64,000 bases of DNA. It comes from Acidobacteria bacterium AB60 (GTDB lineage Bacteria > Acidobacteriota > Terriglobia > Terriglobales > Acidobacteriaceae). The notes beneath the pieces were generated by a model. That model was not told the origin of the DNA. It made no database searches and was given only the letters and a program-made list of their open reading frames with translations. Position 1 is the first letter of the stretch. Every line of letters starts with the position of its first letter. Location of the stretch: contig VANK01000002.1 in assembly GCA_008682415.1 (NCBI GenBank), forward strand, positions 1 through 64,000. The letters run 5' to 3'. Below are positions 51,695 through 58,243 of this stretch, in pieces. Made by a program: the position numbers and the translations under genes.

Positions 51695-51724
51695 TTGACA
51701 CGGCTTGGGGTTCGCCGGTAGTTT
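51695..51724 (+). promoter_or_regulatory. Putative his operon promoter
   Basis: TTGACA at 51695-51700 is a perfect -35 box; TAGTTT at 51719-51724 is a weak -10 at 18-bp spacing. Transcription would start near 51731, two bases before the hisL ATG. There is only a 64-bp gap between the MscS gene stop and hisL, so the operon promoter must lie here or in the preceding gene. Confidence 0.45.
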
Positions 51725-51732
51725 GAAAACAG

Positions 51733-51810
51733 ATGCAGACCCGCCGCCATCACGGTCACCACCACCATCATGGAACCTCCATGCCGGCGGACTGCCATGG
51801 CCTGAACTAA
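51733..51810 (+). CDS. hisL: His operon leader peptide
   Basis: A 25-residue leader: MQTRRHHGHHHHHGTSMPAD then CHGLN and stop TAA. Seven of the eight codons from 51748 to 51771 are His, plus one more near the end. There is no Shine-Dalgarno sequence before the ATG, consistent with a nearly leaderless transcript from the predicted promoter. The run of His codons in a short frame followed by a terminator 27 nt after the stop is the hallmark of ribosome-mediated attenuation: stalling for lack of His-tRNA would favour read-through into hisI. It is too short for usual gene finders. Confidence 0.9.
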   Translation: MQTRRHHGHHHHHGTSMPADCHGLN

Positions 51811-51848
51811 ACGGCCCGACAGATCAGAAAGCACCCAGCCCGCCGGCA
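51741..51848 (+). promoter_or_regulatory. His attenuator: alternative pairing segments 1, 2 and 3
   Basis: Segment 1 (51741-51750, CCGCCGCCAT, overlapping the first His codon) can pair with segment 2 (51781-51790, ATGCCGGCGG) with one mismatch in ten. Segment 2 (51782-51790) can instead pair with segment 3 (51840-51848, CCGCCGGCA) over 9 bp. Segment 3 is also the 5' arm of the terminator. A ribosome stalled on the His codons would cover segment 1, free segment 2 and favour 2:3, which prevents termination. With ample His-tRNA the 3:4 terminator forms. The pairings are read directly; the mechanism is inferred by analogy with enterobacterial his leaders. Confidence 0.8.
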
Positions 51849-51868
51849 ACCAAGCCGGCGGGCTTTTT
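51837..51868 (+). terminator. His attenuator terminator (3:4 hairpin)
   Basis: AGCCCGCCGG and CCGGCGGGCT form a perfect 10-bp stem with an 8-base loop (CAACCAAG), followed by TTTT. It is one of the strongest intrinsic terminator structures in the window and lies between the hisL stop and hisI. Confidence 0.9.
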
Positions 51869-51900
51869 CGTTGCTATCAATCCAAGCGAGAGAAGAATCA

Positions 51901-52254
51901 ATGATCGATTTCGACAAGATGGACGGACTGGCCCCTGGCATCGTGCAGGATGCCCGCACCGGCGAGGTTCTGATGCTGGGATTTCTCAACCCCATAAGCT
52001 ACGCCAAAACGCTGGAAACCGGCTTCGTCACCTTCTGGAGCCGGACCCGGCAGAAGCTGTGGATGAAAGGGGAAACCAGCGGCAATCGCCTGCGCGTCAT
52101 CTCCGCCTCCACCGACTGTGACAACGACACACTCCTCTTCCGCGTCGAGGTCGAAGGCGACGGACTCGTCTGTCACGAAGGAACCGTCAGCTGCTTCACT
52201 CGCCCCATCGACCTCAACTCCGAGCGCGCGCCGTCGGAGGCCTCCAATGCCTAA
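51901..52254 (+). CDS. hisI: Phosphoribosyl-AMP cyclohydrolase
   Basis: A 117-residue monofunctional HisI; the HisE domain is absent. It opens the ring of phosphoribosyl-AMP in histidine synthesis. The conserved core is visible: [40 protein letters not shown], and the metal-binding [12 protein letters not shown] (Asp residues) with the Cys pair in [12 protein letters not shown] 51901 lies behind GAGAGAAG. It is the first structural gene after the attenuator, an unusual place, as hisI is often last. The stop overlaps hisG by 8 nt. Confidence 0.95.
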
Positions 52255-53119
52255 GCTCCGTCTCGGCATTCCCAAAGGCAGCCTGCAAGACGCCACCATC
52301 GCCCTCTTCAAGCGCGCAGGCTGGAACATCTACGCCGACGGTCGTTCCTACTTCCCCTCCATTGACGACGCCGAGATCGAGTGCATGCTCATCCGCGCCC
52401 AGGAGATGGCCCGCTACGTCGATCACGGCGTCCTCGACGCCGGACTCACCGGCATCGATTGGGTCGTCGAAAGCGGTCTCGATGTCCCCAGCGTCACCAC
52501 CCTCACCTACGCCAAGCAAAGCCGTCGCAAAGTCCGCTGGGTCCTGGCCGTCCCCGAGTCCAGCGGCTTCGAAAAAGCCGAAGACCTCGAAGGCAAGATC
52601 ATCGCCACCGAACTGGTCGAAGTCAGCAGGCGCTACTTTGCCGATCGCGGGGTCAACGTAAAGGTCGAATTCAGCTGGGGCGCCACTGAGGTCAAGCCGC
52701 CCATGCTCGCCGACGCGATCGTTGAAGTCACTGAGACCGGCAGCTCTCTCAAGGCTAACCATCTCAAGATCATCGACACGGTGATGGAAAGCGAAACCCA
52801 CTTCATCGCCGGCAACGCCGCTCTCGCCGATCCCTGGAAGCGCCAAAAGATCGAGTCCATCGCGCTCATGCTGCGCGGCGCCATCGACGCCCAATCCCAG
52901 GTCGGTCTCATGCTCAACGTGAAGCGCGCGAACCTCGACGCCGTGCTCGCCGTCCTCCCCGCGCTCAACTCGCCCACCGTCTCGCAGCTCAGCGATCCCG
53001 AATGGGTCGCCGTCAACACCATCCTGGAAGAACGCTACGCGCGCGACGTCATTCCCCGCCTCAAGGCCGCCAACGCTACCGGCATCGTCGAATATCCGCT
53101 CAACAAGGTTGTCCTCTAG
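52247..53119 (+). CDS. hisG: ATP phosphoribosyltransferase, long form
   Basis: A 290-residue HisG. It catalyses the first committed step, ATP plus PRPP to phosphoribosyl-ATP. The length and the C-terminal extension (about 215-290, [34 protein letters not shown]) mark the long form with its ACT-like histidine-feedback domain, so no HisZ is needed. [17 protein letters not shown] and the PRPP loop [13 protein letters not shown] are typical. ATG 52247 overlaps hisI by 8 nt; the frame runs farther upstream but inside hisI. Confidence 0.95.
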
Positions 53120-53132
53120 TCCGGAGAAAGCC

Positions 53133-54422
53133 ATGAAGATCATTCGGACAAACGGACGCAGCGCCAAAAAAGCGGCACAGGCCATCGCAGCTCTGGAACA
53201 GCGTGGGAGCGCGGCCCTCGACGCCGTGCTCCCGGCCGTCAAGCGCATCATCTCTGACGTGCGCTCCGGCGGCGATCGCGCCCTCTTGCGCTATGCCAAA
53301 AAATTCGACGGACTCCCCGGTGCCGACCTCCTTCGTGTCACCCGCGAAGAGATGGCCGCAGCCTGGGACGCTATCGATCCCCAACTGCAAACCGCGCTTA
53401 CCACCGCAGCTCGCCAGATCCGCGCATTCGCCCAGCGTCAGATGCCGCAATCCTGGTCCGACTCGCCGCTCCCCGGCCTCACCACCGGCCAGATCGTTCG
53501 TCCTCTTGCTTCGGTCGGTTGTTACGTCCCCAGCGGCCGCCATCCCCTTCCCTCCACTCTCTTGATGACTGCCATTCCCGCGCAGGCAGCGGGCGTCGTG
53601 CGCATCGTCGTCGTCTCTCCCAAGCCGGCCAAGGAAACCCTCGCCGCCGCGTCGCTGCTCGGTATTGAGGAGTTCTACCGCGTCGGCGGCGCGCATGCCA
53701 TCGCCGCTCTAGCCTACGGAACCGCCGTCATTTCCCGAGTAGACAAGATTGTCGGCCCCGGCAATCTCTATGTCACCGCCGCCAAGCGTACGGTCGCCTT
53801 CGACTGCTCCATCGACATGCTCGCCGGCCCCACAGAGATCGTAGTCACTAGCGATCGCGGCCGCCCTGACGACATCGCCTCCGATCTCGTTGCACAGGCT
53901 GAGCACGACCCCAAGGCCCTCGCCATCTTCATCACCACCAGCGACAAGCTCGCTGCCGAAGTTCTTGCCTCATCCCGCGAACGTTGCCGCAACAATCCCG
54001 TCGCCCGTCAAGCCCTTCGTCGCAACGGCATCATTTTCATCGCCGCAAATCCGAGCGAAGCACGCGACCTCACCAACCGCCTCGCCCCGGAACACCTCAC
54101 CGTGGACTCCGCCTCGGACCTCGATTGGGTCACCAACGCGGGCTCCGTTTTCGTCGGCCGCTGGTCTGCGCAGCCCATGGGAGACTACATCTCCGGACCC
54201 AACCACACCCTGCCCACCGGCGGCATGGCGCGCGTGCGCGGCGGCCTGAGCGTCAACGACTTCGTCAAGCTCATCACCGTGCAGGAGTACGCACCGGAAG
54301 CCATGCAGGCCCTCGGTCCCCCGGCCGCGCTCCTCGCTGAAGCCGAAGGCCTCACCGGCCACGCCCAAGCCATTCGCACCCGCCTCAACACTCCATCGCG
54401 CAAGAGGAAATCGAATGCCTGA
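53133..54422 (+). CDS. hisD: Histidinol dehydrogenase
   Basis: A 429-residue enzyme performing the two final NAD-dependent oxidations of histidinol. The signature CYVPSGRHPLPSTLLMTAIPAQAAGV, the zinc-ligand AQAEHDPKALAI (Gln and His) and LAPEHLTVDS, together with PTEIVVTSD, are all intact. ATG 53133 with GGAGA 7 bases upstream is preferred over TTG 53109. It lies 13 nt after hisG, and its stop overlaps hisC by 8 nt. Confidence 0.95.
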   Translation: MKIIRTNGRSAKKAAQAIAALEQRGSAALDAVLPAVKRIISDVRSGGDRALLRYAKKFDGLPGADLLRVTREEMAAAWDAIDPQLQTALTTAARQIRAFAQRQMPQSWSDSPLPGLTTGQIVRPLASVGCYVPSGRHPLPSTLLMTAIPAQAAGVVRIVVVSPKPAKETLAAASLLGIEEFYRVGGAHAIAALAYGTAVISRVDKIVGPGNLYVTAAKRTVAFDCSIDMLAGPTEIVVTSDRGRPDDIASDLVAQAEHDPKALAIFITTSDKLAAEVLASSRERCRNNPVARQALRRNGIIFIAANPSEARDLTNRLAPEHLTVDSASDLDWVTNAGSVFVGRWSAQPMGDYISGPNHTLPTGGMARVRGGLSVNDFVKLITVQEYAPEAMQALGPPAALLAEAEGLTGHAQAIRTRLNTPSRKRKSNA

Positions 54423-55506
54423 CACCCAGACCATTCCTGAACCGCGCGCCCGCGTCCGCTCCATGAAGGAGTACCACCCTCCCCTCGGATGCCGCGACGC
54501 CCTCCGCCTCGACTTCAACGAGAACACCGTCGCCTGCTCGCCCGCCGTGCGCAACGTCCTCTCCCGCATCGCCGCCGGCGACCTCACGCGCTACCCCGAG
54601 CGCGCTCCCGTCGAAGCCAAAGTAGCGCGGCATCTCGGCCTCGTTCCCGAACAAATCGCCCTCACCAACGGCGTCGATGAAGCCATTCACGTGCTCTTCG
54701 AAGCCTTCCTCGAAGCTGGCGACGAGCTTCTCCTGCCCGTCCCCACCTACACCATGTACGAGGTCTACGCCTCGGCCACCGACGCCTCCGTCGTCGCTGT
54801 CCAGGCCGGCGATGACCTGCAGTTTCCCTTCGAGCGCCTGCTCGCCGCCATCACCCCGCGCACCAAGATCATCGCCATCGCCAACCCCAACAGCCCCGCT
54901 GGCAGCGTCGCCTCCCGCGAACAGATCCTCGCCATCGCCCGCCGCGCTCCCCACGCCGTAATACTCGTCGATGAAGCCTACTTCCACTTCCACGGGGAGA
55001 CCGTCATCGATCTCATCGGCATCCAGCCCAACCTCGTCGTCGCACGCACCTTCTCCAAGGCCTACGGCCTCGCCGGCCTTCGCGTCGGCGTCCTCGCCGC
55101 GCCCGTCGATCTCATGCAGTGGATCCGCCGGGTTCTCTCTCCCTACAGCGTCAACTCCGTCGCGCTCGCCTGTCTTCCCGCGGCCCTAGACGACGACGCC
55201 TATATCACCAGCTACGCAACCGAGGTGAGGGCCGCGCGCACTCAGTTTGAAGCCACGCTCGACCAGGCCAACATCCGCTGGTGGCCCAGCGCCGCCAACT
55301 TCGTCCTCGTCGACATCGGGCCCCGTCACGCGGACTTCGTCCGCCGCATGCACGCAGCCGGCGTCCTCGTGCGCGACCGCTCCAATGACCCCGGCTGCGA
55401 TGGCCGCGTTCGCATCACCATCGGGACCCGCGAACAGATGCGCCACGCCGCATCCGCGCTCCACCAGGCCATCGCAGCCATCCGCGCCGAAGGAGACAAG
55501 CCATGA
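54415..55506 (+). CDS. hisC: Histidinol-phosphate aminotransferase
   Basis: A 363-residue PLP enzyme of fold type I that makes histidinol phosphate. The PLP-lysine motif [16 protein letters not shown], the upstream [10 protein letters not shown] and DEAYFHF, and the terminal Arg in RVRITIG are present. It overlaps hisD by 8 nt and hisB by 4 nt (ATGA). Its place between hisD and hisB supports the assignment over other class II aminotransferases. Confidence 0.93.
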
Positions 55507-56120
55507 GCCAGGAAACTCTCGCCTCCCCCGCACAACGGTCCGCAAGCTTCGAGCGCAACACCACCGAAACGCGTATCGCCATTCGCCTCACCATCGAAGG
55601 CCAGGGCAAGTACCAGGTCAAAACCGGCATCCGCTTCTTCGACCACATGCTCGAGCTCTTCACCCGCCATGGCGCATTCGACCTCGACCTCGCCTGCGAC
55701 GGCGACCTTGACGTCGACCAGCACCACACCGTCGAAGACGTCGGCATCGCGCTCGGCGAAGCCTTCGACCGTGCACTCGGCGATAAGCGTGGCATCCTCC
55801 GCGCCGGCTACTTCCTCATGCCCATGGACGAAACCCTCGCCATCGCCGCCGTCGATCTCAGCGGCCGCGCCGCCTACGCGGTTGACACCCAGGTCCGCAC
55901 CCGTCTTGTAGGTGACCTGCAAACCGAACTGGTCACCGATTTCTTCGAAGGCTTCGCACGAGGCGCCCGCGCCAACGTCCATGTCAAGACCATGTACGGC
56001 CGCTCCAACCACCACAAGATCGAGGCCATCTTCAAAGCCTTCGCCCGCGCACTGCGCGTCGCCTGCAGCCGCGACAAGCAACTCGGCGAGATGCTTCCCT
56101 CCACCAAAGGCTTGCTATGA
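55503..56120 (+). CDS. hisB: Imidazoleglycerol-phosphate dehydratase
   Basis: A 205-residue monofunctional HisB without the N-terminal phosphatase of enterobacteria, so histidinol-phosphatase must be supplied by another gene. The paired metal-binding motifs [16 protein letters not shown] and [18 protein letters not shown] are intact, as is FFDHMLELF. It starts in a 4-nt overlap with hisC. Its stop is embedded in ATGA, where a 16-codon mini-frame starts. Confidence 0.95.
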
Positions 56121-56167
56121 CTAACTCCGCCAGCACCGCTAACTCCGCTCCATTGCTAACTTGCTAA
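56117..56167 (+). other. 16-codon mini-frame bridging hisB and hisH
   Basis: An ATG overlapping the hisB stop (ATGA) opens a frame of [16 protein letters not shown] that ends 12 nt before the hisH ATG. The stretch contains four copies of CTAAC and a direct repeat of CTAACTCCGC. It may let ribosomes keep translating across the only long gap in the operon. Expression is not shown; the composition may be coincidental. Confidence 0.35.
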
Positions 56168-56178
56168 CAGAGGCTTTC

Positions 56179-56790
56179 ATGCGCGTCACCGTCATCGACT
56201 ACAAAGCCGGCAACCTGACTTCCGTCCTCAAAGCGCTGCGCCATCTCGGCCCGGAGATCGAAGTCACCGACGCGGACACCGCTCCCATCGAGCGCGCCCA
56301 ACGCATCGTCCTTCCCGGCGTCGGACACTTCGCCGCAACCAGGCGCCTCGACGACACCGGCCTCACCCCCGCCATCCGCGCCGCAATCGCCCGCGGCATT
56401 CCCTTCCTCGGCATCTGCGTCGGCATGCAGTGGCTCTACGCCGGCTCAACCGAAGCCCCCAGCCACGCAGGTCTCAGCCACTTCCACCAATCCTGCTCTC
56501 GCTTTCCCGATTGCGATCAAAAGGTTCCCCATGTCGGCTGGAACTCTCTTCAGCCCCGCGACAGCTCGCGCCTCCTCAGCGGCGTCTTCCCCGGCGAATT
56601 CGTCTACTTCACGCACTCCTACAAAGCGCCCGTCACTGCCGACACCGCCGCGGAAGCCTTCTACATCGAGTCCTTTGCCGCTGCCGTCGAGCGCGGCAAC
56701 GTCTTCGGCGTACAGTTCCATCCCGAAAAATCCGGCGAAACCGGCCTGAAGATCCTGCGCAACTTTCTCACCTGTGAGGCAGCATGCTGA
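56179..56790 (+). CDS. hisH: Imidazole glycerol phosphate synthase, glutaminase subunit
   Basis: A 203-residue class I glutamine amidotransferase. The nucleophile Cys lies in [10 protein letters not shown] (about residue 80), and the catalytic His/Glu in [12 protein letters not shown]-terminal [18 protein letters not shown] is typical of HisH. It provides ammonia to HisF. ATG 56179 follows AGAGG at 6-7 bases. Its 3' end overlaps hisF by 7 nt. Confidence 0.95.
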
Positions 56791-57563
56791 CCAAACGCAT
56801 CATCGCCTGTCTCGACGTCCACGACGGCCGCGTCGTCAAAGGCGTGCAATTCGTCGATCTCATTGACGCCGGCGATCCCGCCACCCAGGCCGCGCGCCAC
56901 GCCCGCGAAGGTGCCGACGAAATCGTGCTCCTCGACATCACCGCCACCCACGAAGGCCGCAAGACCTTGCTCGAAACCGTCCGCAACACCGCCCGCGCCC
57001 TCTTCGTCCCCTTCACCGTCGGCGGCGGCATCCGCACCGCGCACGACGCCGAACAGGTATTCGAAGCCGGCGCCGACAAAGTCAGCGTCAACTCCGCCGC
57101 CCTGGCTGACCCCACCCTCATCGACGCCATCGGCCGCACCTTCGGTGCCCAGGCCGTCGTCGTCGCCATCGATGCCCGCCGCGATCCCGCCGCCGCCGAT
57201 CCCGTTCGTGACGCGCAGGTCTTCGTGCAAGGCGGACGCAAGCCCACCGGCCGCCGCGTCGTCGAGTGGGCCCGCGAAGCCGAACAGCGAGGTGCCGGCG
57301 AAATCCTCCTCACCTCCATGGACTCCGACGGAACCCGCGCCGGATTCGACTGCGAGCTCACTGCCGCCGTCAGTCAGGCCGTCCGCATCCCCGTCATCGC
57401 CTCCGGTGGCGCCGGCACAGTCTCCCACTTCACCGACGTCTTCGCGCGCGGGAAAGCCGATGCCGCCCTCGCCGCCAGCATCTTCCACTTTGGCGTCTCC
57501 AGCGCGCGCTCCCTCAAACAATCGCTCGCCGCCGCCGGCGTCCCCGTGAGGCTCCCATGCTGA
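56784..57563 (+). CDS. hisF: Imidazole glycerol phosphate synthase, cyclase subunit
   Basis: A 259-residue beta/alpha barrel. The first catalytic Asp is in [15 protein letters not shown], the second in [10 protein letters not shown], and the phosphate-binding loops VGGGIRT and ASGGAGT are present. It forms the heterodimer with HisH and produces IGP and AICAR. It overlaps hisH and hisA by 7 nt each. The operon order H-F-A differs from the H-A-F of enterobacteria. Confidence 0.95.
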
Positions 57564-58243
57564 TCCCCTCCATCGACCTCCTCGGCGGACGGATCGTCCA
57601 GCTCGTGCGCGGCGAAAAACTCCGCCTCGCCTTTGATGACTTCAACTACTGGATCGAGAAGTTTTCACGCTATCCACTCGTCCAGCTCATCGATCTCGAC
57701 GCCGCCATGCGCCAGGGCGACAACTCCGCGCTCGTCGCGCAGATCTGCAAACGCCTCCCATGCCAGGTCGGCGGCGGCTTCCGCTCCACCGAACGCGCAC
57801 AACAAGTTCTCGATCAAGGAGCCCAGCGCGTCATCATCGGCTCCGCGCTCTTCAGTGCCGAACAAGACTCGCCGACCGTCAACACTGCGTTTGCCGCAGA
57901 ACTCGCCGCGACCGTCGGAGCGGAAAAGCTCGTCGCCGGCATCGACACCAAAAACGGACGCATCGCTGTGAAAGGCTGGAAGGCCAGCGTCGCACTCACT
58001 CCCGACCAGGCCATCCCTGAACTCGACCCGTTCGTCTCCGCCTTTCTTTACACGCATGTCGACGGCGAAGGCATGATGCAGGGCTTTCCCCTCGACATCG
58101 CCGCGCGCCTCCGCCGGCTCACCCAGCGCCAACTCATCGTCGCCGGCGGCATCCGCAGCCAGCAGGAGATCGATGACCTCCACGCCCTGGGCGCAGACGC
58201 CGTCGTCGGCATGGCGATTTACACCGACGCTATCGCCGTGTGA
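57557..58243 (+). CDS. hisA: ProFAR isomerase (phosphoribosylformimino-AICAR-P isomerase)
   Basis: A 228-residue barrel that isomerises Pro[22 protein letters not shown] carries the first catalytic Asp, [16 protein letters not shown] the second, and VGGGFRS and VAGGIRS are the phosphate loops. The longer frame upstream lies within hisF; ATG 57557 is chosen, 7 nt before the hisF stop. It is the last of the eight-gene run. Confidence 0.95.

Follow-up and report, generated by a model that had tools for sequence, protein, structure and literature searches.

A predicted histidine attenuator on a probably leaderless mRNA in Acidobacteriota, and a His/Trp form of it before merged operons

The window analysed here, a 64,000-nt stretch of DNA from Acidobacteria bacterium AB60, carries the histidine genes hisIGDCBHFA, preceded by a short leader ORF and a set of alternative RNA stems (Table 1). 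The original prediction, made from the same sequence, had placed an attenuator ahead of this run, and its gene names are borne out by NCBIfam matches, with that of hisA falling below the family cut-off (156.1 versus 228.95 bits). The 25-codon leader peptide with seven His codons within eight was seen just where it had been placed, as were all three mutually exclusive pairings; the terminator stem is indeed present and followed by a T-tract, but it is 11 bp long, one pair longer than the 10 bp claimed. In the core of the antiterminator, 51782-51790 pairs with 51840-51848 at nine positions out of nine, and after one mismatch three further pairs follow. The first His codon of the run is shared with strand 1, strand 2 starts about 10 nt past the last one, and the leader stop codon lies 3′ of strand 2; this geometry is consistent with the attenuation mechanism proposed below. 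The fold of 51695-51870 has a z-score of -2.87, with none of 200 shuffles as good, and in the minimum-energy fold of a longer stretch strand 2 is paired with bases 5′ of the predicted transcription start.

Table 1. Features of the his leader region and the genes that follow it, in window coordinates
Feature	Position	Strand	Remarks
-35 element TTGACA	51695-51700	+	38 nt 5′ of the leader ATG
-10 element TAGTTT (TANNNT)	51719-51724	+	18 nt from -35; predicted transcription start about 51730-51733
Leader ORF, 25 codons and TAA (51808-51810)	51733-51810	+	Peptide MQTRRHHGHHHHHGTSMPADCHGLN; without a recognisable Shine-Dalgarno motif
Strand 1 (protector)	51741-51750	+	Pairs with 51781-51790, 9 of 10; 85.9% of cells paired
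His-codon run	51748-51771	+	Seven of eight codons His; read in the sequence, kept in relatives
Strand 2 (antiterminator 5′ strand)	51781-51794	+	Sequence and alignment
Strand 3 (antiterminator 3′ strand)	51836-51848	+	Overlaps terminator 5′ arm 51837-51847; 90.9% of cells paired
Intrinsic terminator	51837-51868	+	11-bp stem 51837-51847/51854-51864, loop of 6, then TTTT
hisI, first structural gene	51901-52254	+	NCBIfam match PRK00051, 127.6 bits, cut-off 126
hisG, hisD, hisC, hisB, hisH, hisF, hisA	52247-58243	+	NCBIfam matches; hisA begins near 57560

Conservation of the His-codon frame among related Terriglobia, which we take to be the class of the window genome and its close relatives, was something the original prediction had looked to, and the frame proved to be kept there and in other classes as well. 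In 109 of 110 Acidobacteriaceae loci (L001-L110) there is a leader ORF that has five or more His codons within ten, a figure that counts loci and not species, since some genomes appear twice (L002 and L044, for example). The sole miss, L079, is cut by a contig end and has 173 bases upstream; Terracidiphilus, Edaphobacter, Granulicella and Silvibacterium are among the named relatives. Sixty further regions from the class (9 from Acidobacteriaceae, 51 from other families) gave 56 in which a leader immediately 5′ of hisI holds four or more His codons within eight, these regions and 30 of the loci forming a sample out of 183 class genomes with a HisI match. Two others (L129 and L168) have an ORF in the same place with three His codons only, and two members of family f12 (L121 and L122) have no His leader before hisI, which likely reflects loss or another mode of control. 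For the remaining classes of the phylum, 40 regions were taken from 68 non-Acidobacteriaceae genomes with a match (81 less 13), so that the count of at least 17 regions with a leader is a lower bound. Eight of these leaders stand before hisI (L171-L178), three before hisG (L184, L185 and L198, the hisG of the latter two being identified from first residues only), three before hisZ (L196, L197 and L200), one before hisD (L205) and two before the aroDE genes discussed below (L201 and L204). No leader was accepted in five regions of family f34 (L179, L180, L182, L183 and L187). Separately, His-rich matches in L183 and L191, and a second one in L175, lie inside coding stretches and were set aside. 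Thus the first gene after the leader varies across the phylum, being hisI, hisG, hisZ, hisD or the head of an aroDE-his-trp run, and the variation among the first four of these is a departure from the his gene order of E. coli. In the relatives, other families included, the His codons are kept while the neighbouring sequence changes. Removal of identical leaders reduced the set from 182 to 172, and the counts of distinct leaders given below refer to these.

The stems were assessed in an alignment (A1) of the window with 79 of the 80 named loci, L079 being left out, which gives 80 leaders of which 79 are distinct. The antiterminator is paired in 90.9% of cells (slid controls, 22.8-54.5%), the terminator in 90.8% (25.2-52.0%) and the protector stem between strands 1 and 2 in 85.9% (21.6-48.7%), the last made up of an outer helix at 73.4% and an inner one at 95.7%. 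For the antiterminator, the percentage paired was reached by none of 500 shuffles and the covariation score by one. The original prediction had proposed covariation of the three stems among relatives as a check, and this can be upheld in part: the stems are kept and several pairs have changed on both sides (five in the antiterminator, three in the terminator and three in the protector), but the count of such pairs taken alone is not clearly above that in shuffles, which reach it in 49, 444 and 35 cases out of 500, respectively. Cells changed on both sides number 28, 23 and 9 in the same order, and none of the 500 shuffles, which keep relatedness, reached these numbers; the pair types of the terminator were reached by all 500. 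Individual pairs do fail. The protector pair 51743:51788 is lost in 61 of 78 rows and is not conserved, the terminator pair 51844:51857 fails in 29 of 79 rows and the outermost antiterminator pair 51794:51836 in 50 of 79.

Over the full set of 172 distinct leaders, a terminator scoring at least 30 follows 134, compared with one of 516 shuffled spacers, and a terminator at any score follows 163, compared with 46 of 516. By a finder that allows loops longer than 11, as a limit of 11 fails for the Granulicella/Edaphobacter type, 8 of the 172 leaders have no terminator, L171, L184 and L198 among them. The strand-2 region does better than 95% or more of its own shuffles in 58 of 105 leaders from Acidobacteriaceae, 21 of 45 from other families of the class and 5 of 14 from other classes. 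When terminator arms were swapped, a leader's own arm beat at least 80% of other-group arms in 34 of 45 leaders from other families of the class and in 9 of 14 from other classes; among Acidobacteriaceae leaders this comparison is weak, with 27 of 105. Moreover, 2 of the 80 aligned leaders (L066 and L081) have a frameshift ahead of strand 2 and yet keep the strand-2 bases, so that past the His codons it is the RNA rather than the peptide that is conserved. Two more leaders (L048 and L061) have lost one base in the outer part of strand 2 and keep all nine core pairs.

The position of the promoter-like elements deserves separate consideration. In the window itself the -10 element is weak (three of six matches to TATAAT), and an automatic promoter scan of the window called no promoter at the leader. 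Across the relatives, the 108 distinct leaders of Acidobacteriaceae show 96 occurrences of TTGAC at 37-39 nt 5′ of the ATG, the overall peak being at 37-40 nt, and a TANNNT hexamer starts 13-18 nt 5′ of the ATG in 102 of the 108, equal windows further up holding it in 1-8. Outside Acidobacteriaceae the hexamer occupies the same position in 41 of 47 leaders of the class, compared with 0-5 in windows further up, and in 10 of 17 from other classes, compared with 0-2. When such a hexamer begins 14-16 nt 5′ of the ATG, its end falls 8-10 nt short of that codon, and transcription would then start at about the ATG. Motifs resembling a Shine-Dalgarno sequence precede the leader in 2 of 108 Acidobacteriaceae, 3 of 47 leaders from other families of the class and 1 of 17 from other classes, but they are scarce in front of the first structural gene too (11 of 108 in Acidobacteriaceae; 21 of 47 in the other families), so that their absence says little and only the promoter position carries weight. 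From that position, 102 of 108 with TANNNT at 13-18 nt, the mRNA of the leader is probably leaderless, translated from its first base. Leaderless genes as such are predicted at 13.3% on average for three Acidobacteria in the part of a genome survey consulted here (PMC3160421).

A variant of the leader came from the two other-class regions in which a His leader with a Trp codon stands before a 3-dehydroquinate dehydratase/shikimate dehydrogenase-like gene (aroDE). In L201, his and trpE genes lie 3′ of aroDE, and L204 was mapped as far as aroDE. A search of the taxonomic order to which these regions belong covered 19 genomes, 17 of them with an aroDE match, and these fall into two groups: family f45 (14 genomes, 13 with a match; loci L218-L230 and L235-L241) and families f72 and f73 (5 genomes, 4 with a match; loci L231-L234 and L242-L245). 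All 13 leaders of f45 carry both Trp (one to three) and His (three to four) codons, interleaved, as in MFLTSWHWHWHHG, whereas all four of f72/f73 carry Trp (one to three) without His; since these ORFs were chosen for His and Trp content, finding some Trp or His in them is in part an effect of that choice, but the contrast between the groups is not. The single-Trp leader of L233 is a weak case. The leader of L234, from the same group, also has Tyr codons. Operon content, settled by tblastn, differs along the same line: in seven of seven f45 regions there is a 17-gene run, aroDE-hisZ-hisG-hisD-hisC-hisB-hisH-hisA-hisF-hisIE-trpE-trpG-trpD-trpC-trpF-trpB-trpA, and in four of four f72/f73 regions aroDE-trpE-trpG-trpD-trpC-trpF-trpB-trpA, without his genes. 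The codons of the leader thus seem to track the content of the operon, which adds support to a role for these ORFs in sensing the amino acids of the operons that they precede. In a comparison with 100 shuffles, the antiterminator surpasses at least 95% in 10 of 13 f45 leaders and 2 of 4 from f72/f73, and 7 of the 13 dual leaders make up a second alignment (A2). TTGAC is found 36-40 nt before the start codon in 13 of 13 f45 leaders and TANNNT at 13-18 nt in 1 of 13, which makes the leaderless claim weaker for f45. In E. coli, the leaders of ilvGMEDA and thrABC each mix codons of two or more amino acids; those of f45 differ in combining His and Trp, the products of two pathways joined in one aroDE-his-trp run. 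We consider it likely that an old leaderless attenuator shared by Acidobacteriota was retuned as operons merged, such that the f45 leader would be a single dual-input His/Trp sensor for 17 genes and the sister families, with aroDE-trp, would keep a Trp leader without His.

Taken as a whole, the region is very probably a histidine attenuator in which a translating ribosome governs transcription and the leader mRNA is leaderless, a reading drawn from sequence comparison. We infer that transcription starts at the leader ATG or no more than about 3 nt from it, and a ribosome would load once the 5′ end leaves RNA polymerase. With ample His-tRNA, this ribosome would reach the stop codon and so pass over strand 2; the 1:2 stem would reform behind it, strand 3 would be free for the 3:4 terminator, and transcription would stop before hisI. 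With scarce His-tRNA, the ribosome would be expected to stall in the His run, covering strand 1, whereupon strand 2 would pair with strand 3, no terminator would form and hisIGDCBHFA would be transcribed. The predicted effect on expression is therefore induction of the whole run upon shortage of His-tRNA.

Should transcription begin further upstream, the same attenuator would sit behind an ordinary 5′ leader and its ATG would be reached without help from a Shine-Dalgarno motif. Such an arrangement would account for the promoter scan that calls nothing at the leader and for the best single-sequence fold, which uses bases 5′ of the predicted start, and it loses nothing from the rarity of Shine-Dalgarno-like motifs, because with 11 of 108 before the first gene their absence is no mark of a leaderless message. 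It is nevertheless improbable given the TANNNT hexamers at 13-18 nt in 102/108, 41/47 and 10/17 leaders, against 0-8 further up, and given the peak of TTGAC at 37-40 nt before the ATG.

The other two explanations fare worse than a displaced start. Since attenuator hairpins alone leave the sensor unnamed, histidine could be sensed by the RNA directly, by way of uncharged tRNA (a T-box) or by a protein, with the leader ORF incidental; his genes in Firmicutes are in fact controlled by T-boxes and the HisR repressor, according to the portion of PMC9413887 used here. We regard this as very unlikely here, since neither a T-box nor any other regulatory Rfam family was found at gathering threshold in the window and 11 relatives, the His codons are kept amid changing sequence, and operons that also contain trp genes have Trp codons in the leader alongside those for His. 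Most doubtful of all is that the ORF encodes a functional small His-rich protein, for instance a metal-binding one, ahead of an ordinary terminator. One subgroup has well-conserved distal residues, MPADCHGL, as such a protein would lead one to expect, but a frameshift precedes this very part in L066 and L081 with the RNA kept, the residues beside the His codons differ in other families, and a strong terminator that separates hisI from its promoter points to a need for read-through control.

The attenuator, in its proposed working and by its anatomy, belongs with the leader-peptide attenuators: an amino acid-rich leader ORF stands before the operon, an intrinsic terminator follows, and an antiterminator excludes it. 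It is outside Rfam RF00514 (His_leader) as that model stands. The original prediction had pointed to a search with this model, and it gave no match at the gathering score of 49 bits in the window, in the genome to which it belongs or in 19 relatives; in a control search the model matched 2 of 14 genomes, 1 of them over the cut-off, and the negative shows only that the model does not reach the version in Acidobacteriota. Matches below threshold to anti-hemB and sR32 in relatives were attributed to chance. In the window's own genome, the 600 nt 5′ of the trpE, ilvB and leuA matches hold no leader ORF with two Trp codons in eight or five Ile/Val/Leu codons in eight. There, trpE may start, without a leader peptide, at a GTG shortly 3′ of a -10-like TACACT (L211, about 1385-1405, reverse-complemented) and is possibly leaderless itself.

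With the his attenuator of E. coli and Salmonella (RF00514) the system shares a leader peptide of His codons, alternative stems and a terminator before the first his gene; the peptide there has 18 residues with seven consecutive His, as described in the consulted part of PMC3896937. It differs in the absence of an Rfam match, in its leaderless promoter geometry and in the reach of its leader, which has 25 codons and extends beyond strand 2. His attenuators are also recorded in the Bacillus cereus group, five Eubacteriales and six Erysipelotrichales (excerpts of PMC9413887). Those of Firmicutes likewise have a short ORF with tandem His codons and then terminator/antiterminator hairpins, but with three to five consecutive His codons, against up to seven of eight codons here in another phylum, and the sections consulted make no mention of leaderless geometry (PMC9413887, PMC2965389). 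Leader-peptide systems are known in Proteobacteria and Actinobacteria, with hisS and hisZ leaders added in bacilli, and attenuators have been predicted in phyla such as Acidobacteria, almost none of them with an assigned function, at least in the parts of that comparative work drawn on here (PMC2965389). A parallel is offered by trpL of Sinorhizobium meliloti, an attenuator RNA whose first bases are the ATG of its leader ORF; it concerns tryptophan in an alphaproteobacterium and has a known 5′ end, in contrast to the histidine system and predicted start described here (partial source, PMC7298713).

According to the original prediction, his attenuation was not known to have been described for Acidobacteriota, and a literature search agrees: among the matches listed, and outside most subscription journals, no histidine leader in Acidobacteriota and no His/Trp leader is reported. 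Comparative attenuation surveys, reportedly by Vitreschak, Gelfand, Lyubetsky and others, could mention Acidobacteria. That earlier prediction did not include the promoter geometry of a leaderless mRNA, the occurrence in further classes or the His/Trp version. Because Rfam misses the his leader of Acidobacteriota, regulation of histidine synthesis is left unannotated by that route. With the present findings, the range of predicted leader-peptide control over histidine synthesis takes in a major phylum of soil bacteria. The likely translation from the first base would suit attenuation, as the ribosome needs no landing site, and the His/Trp leaders offer a natural experiment in how a sensor adapts when two pathways come under one operon.
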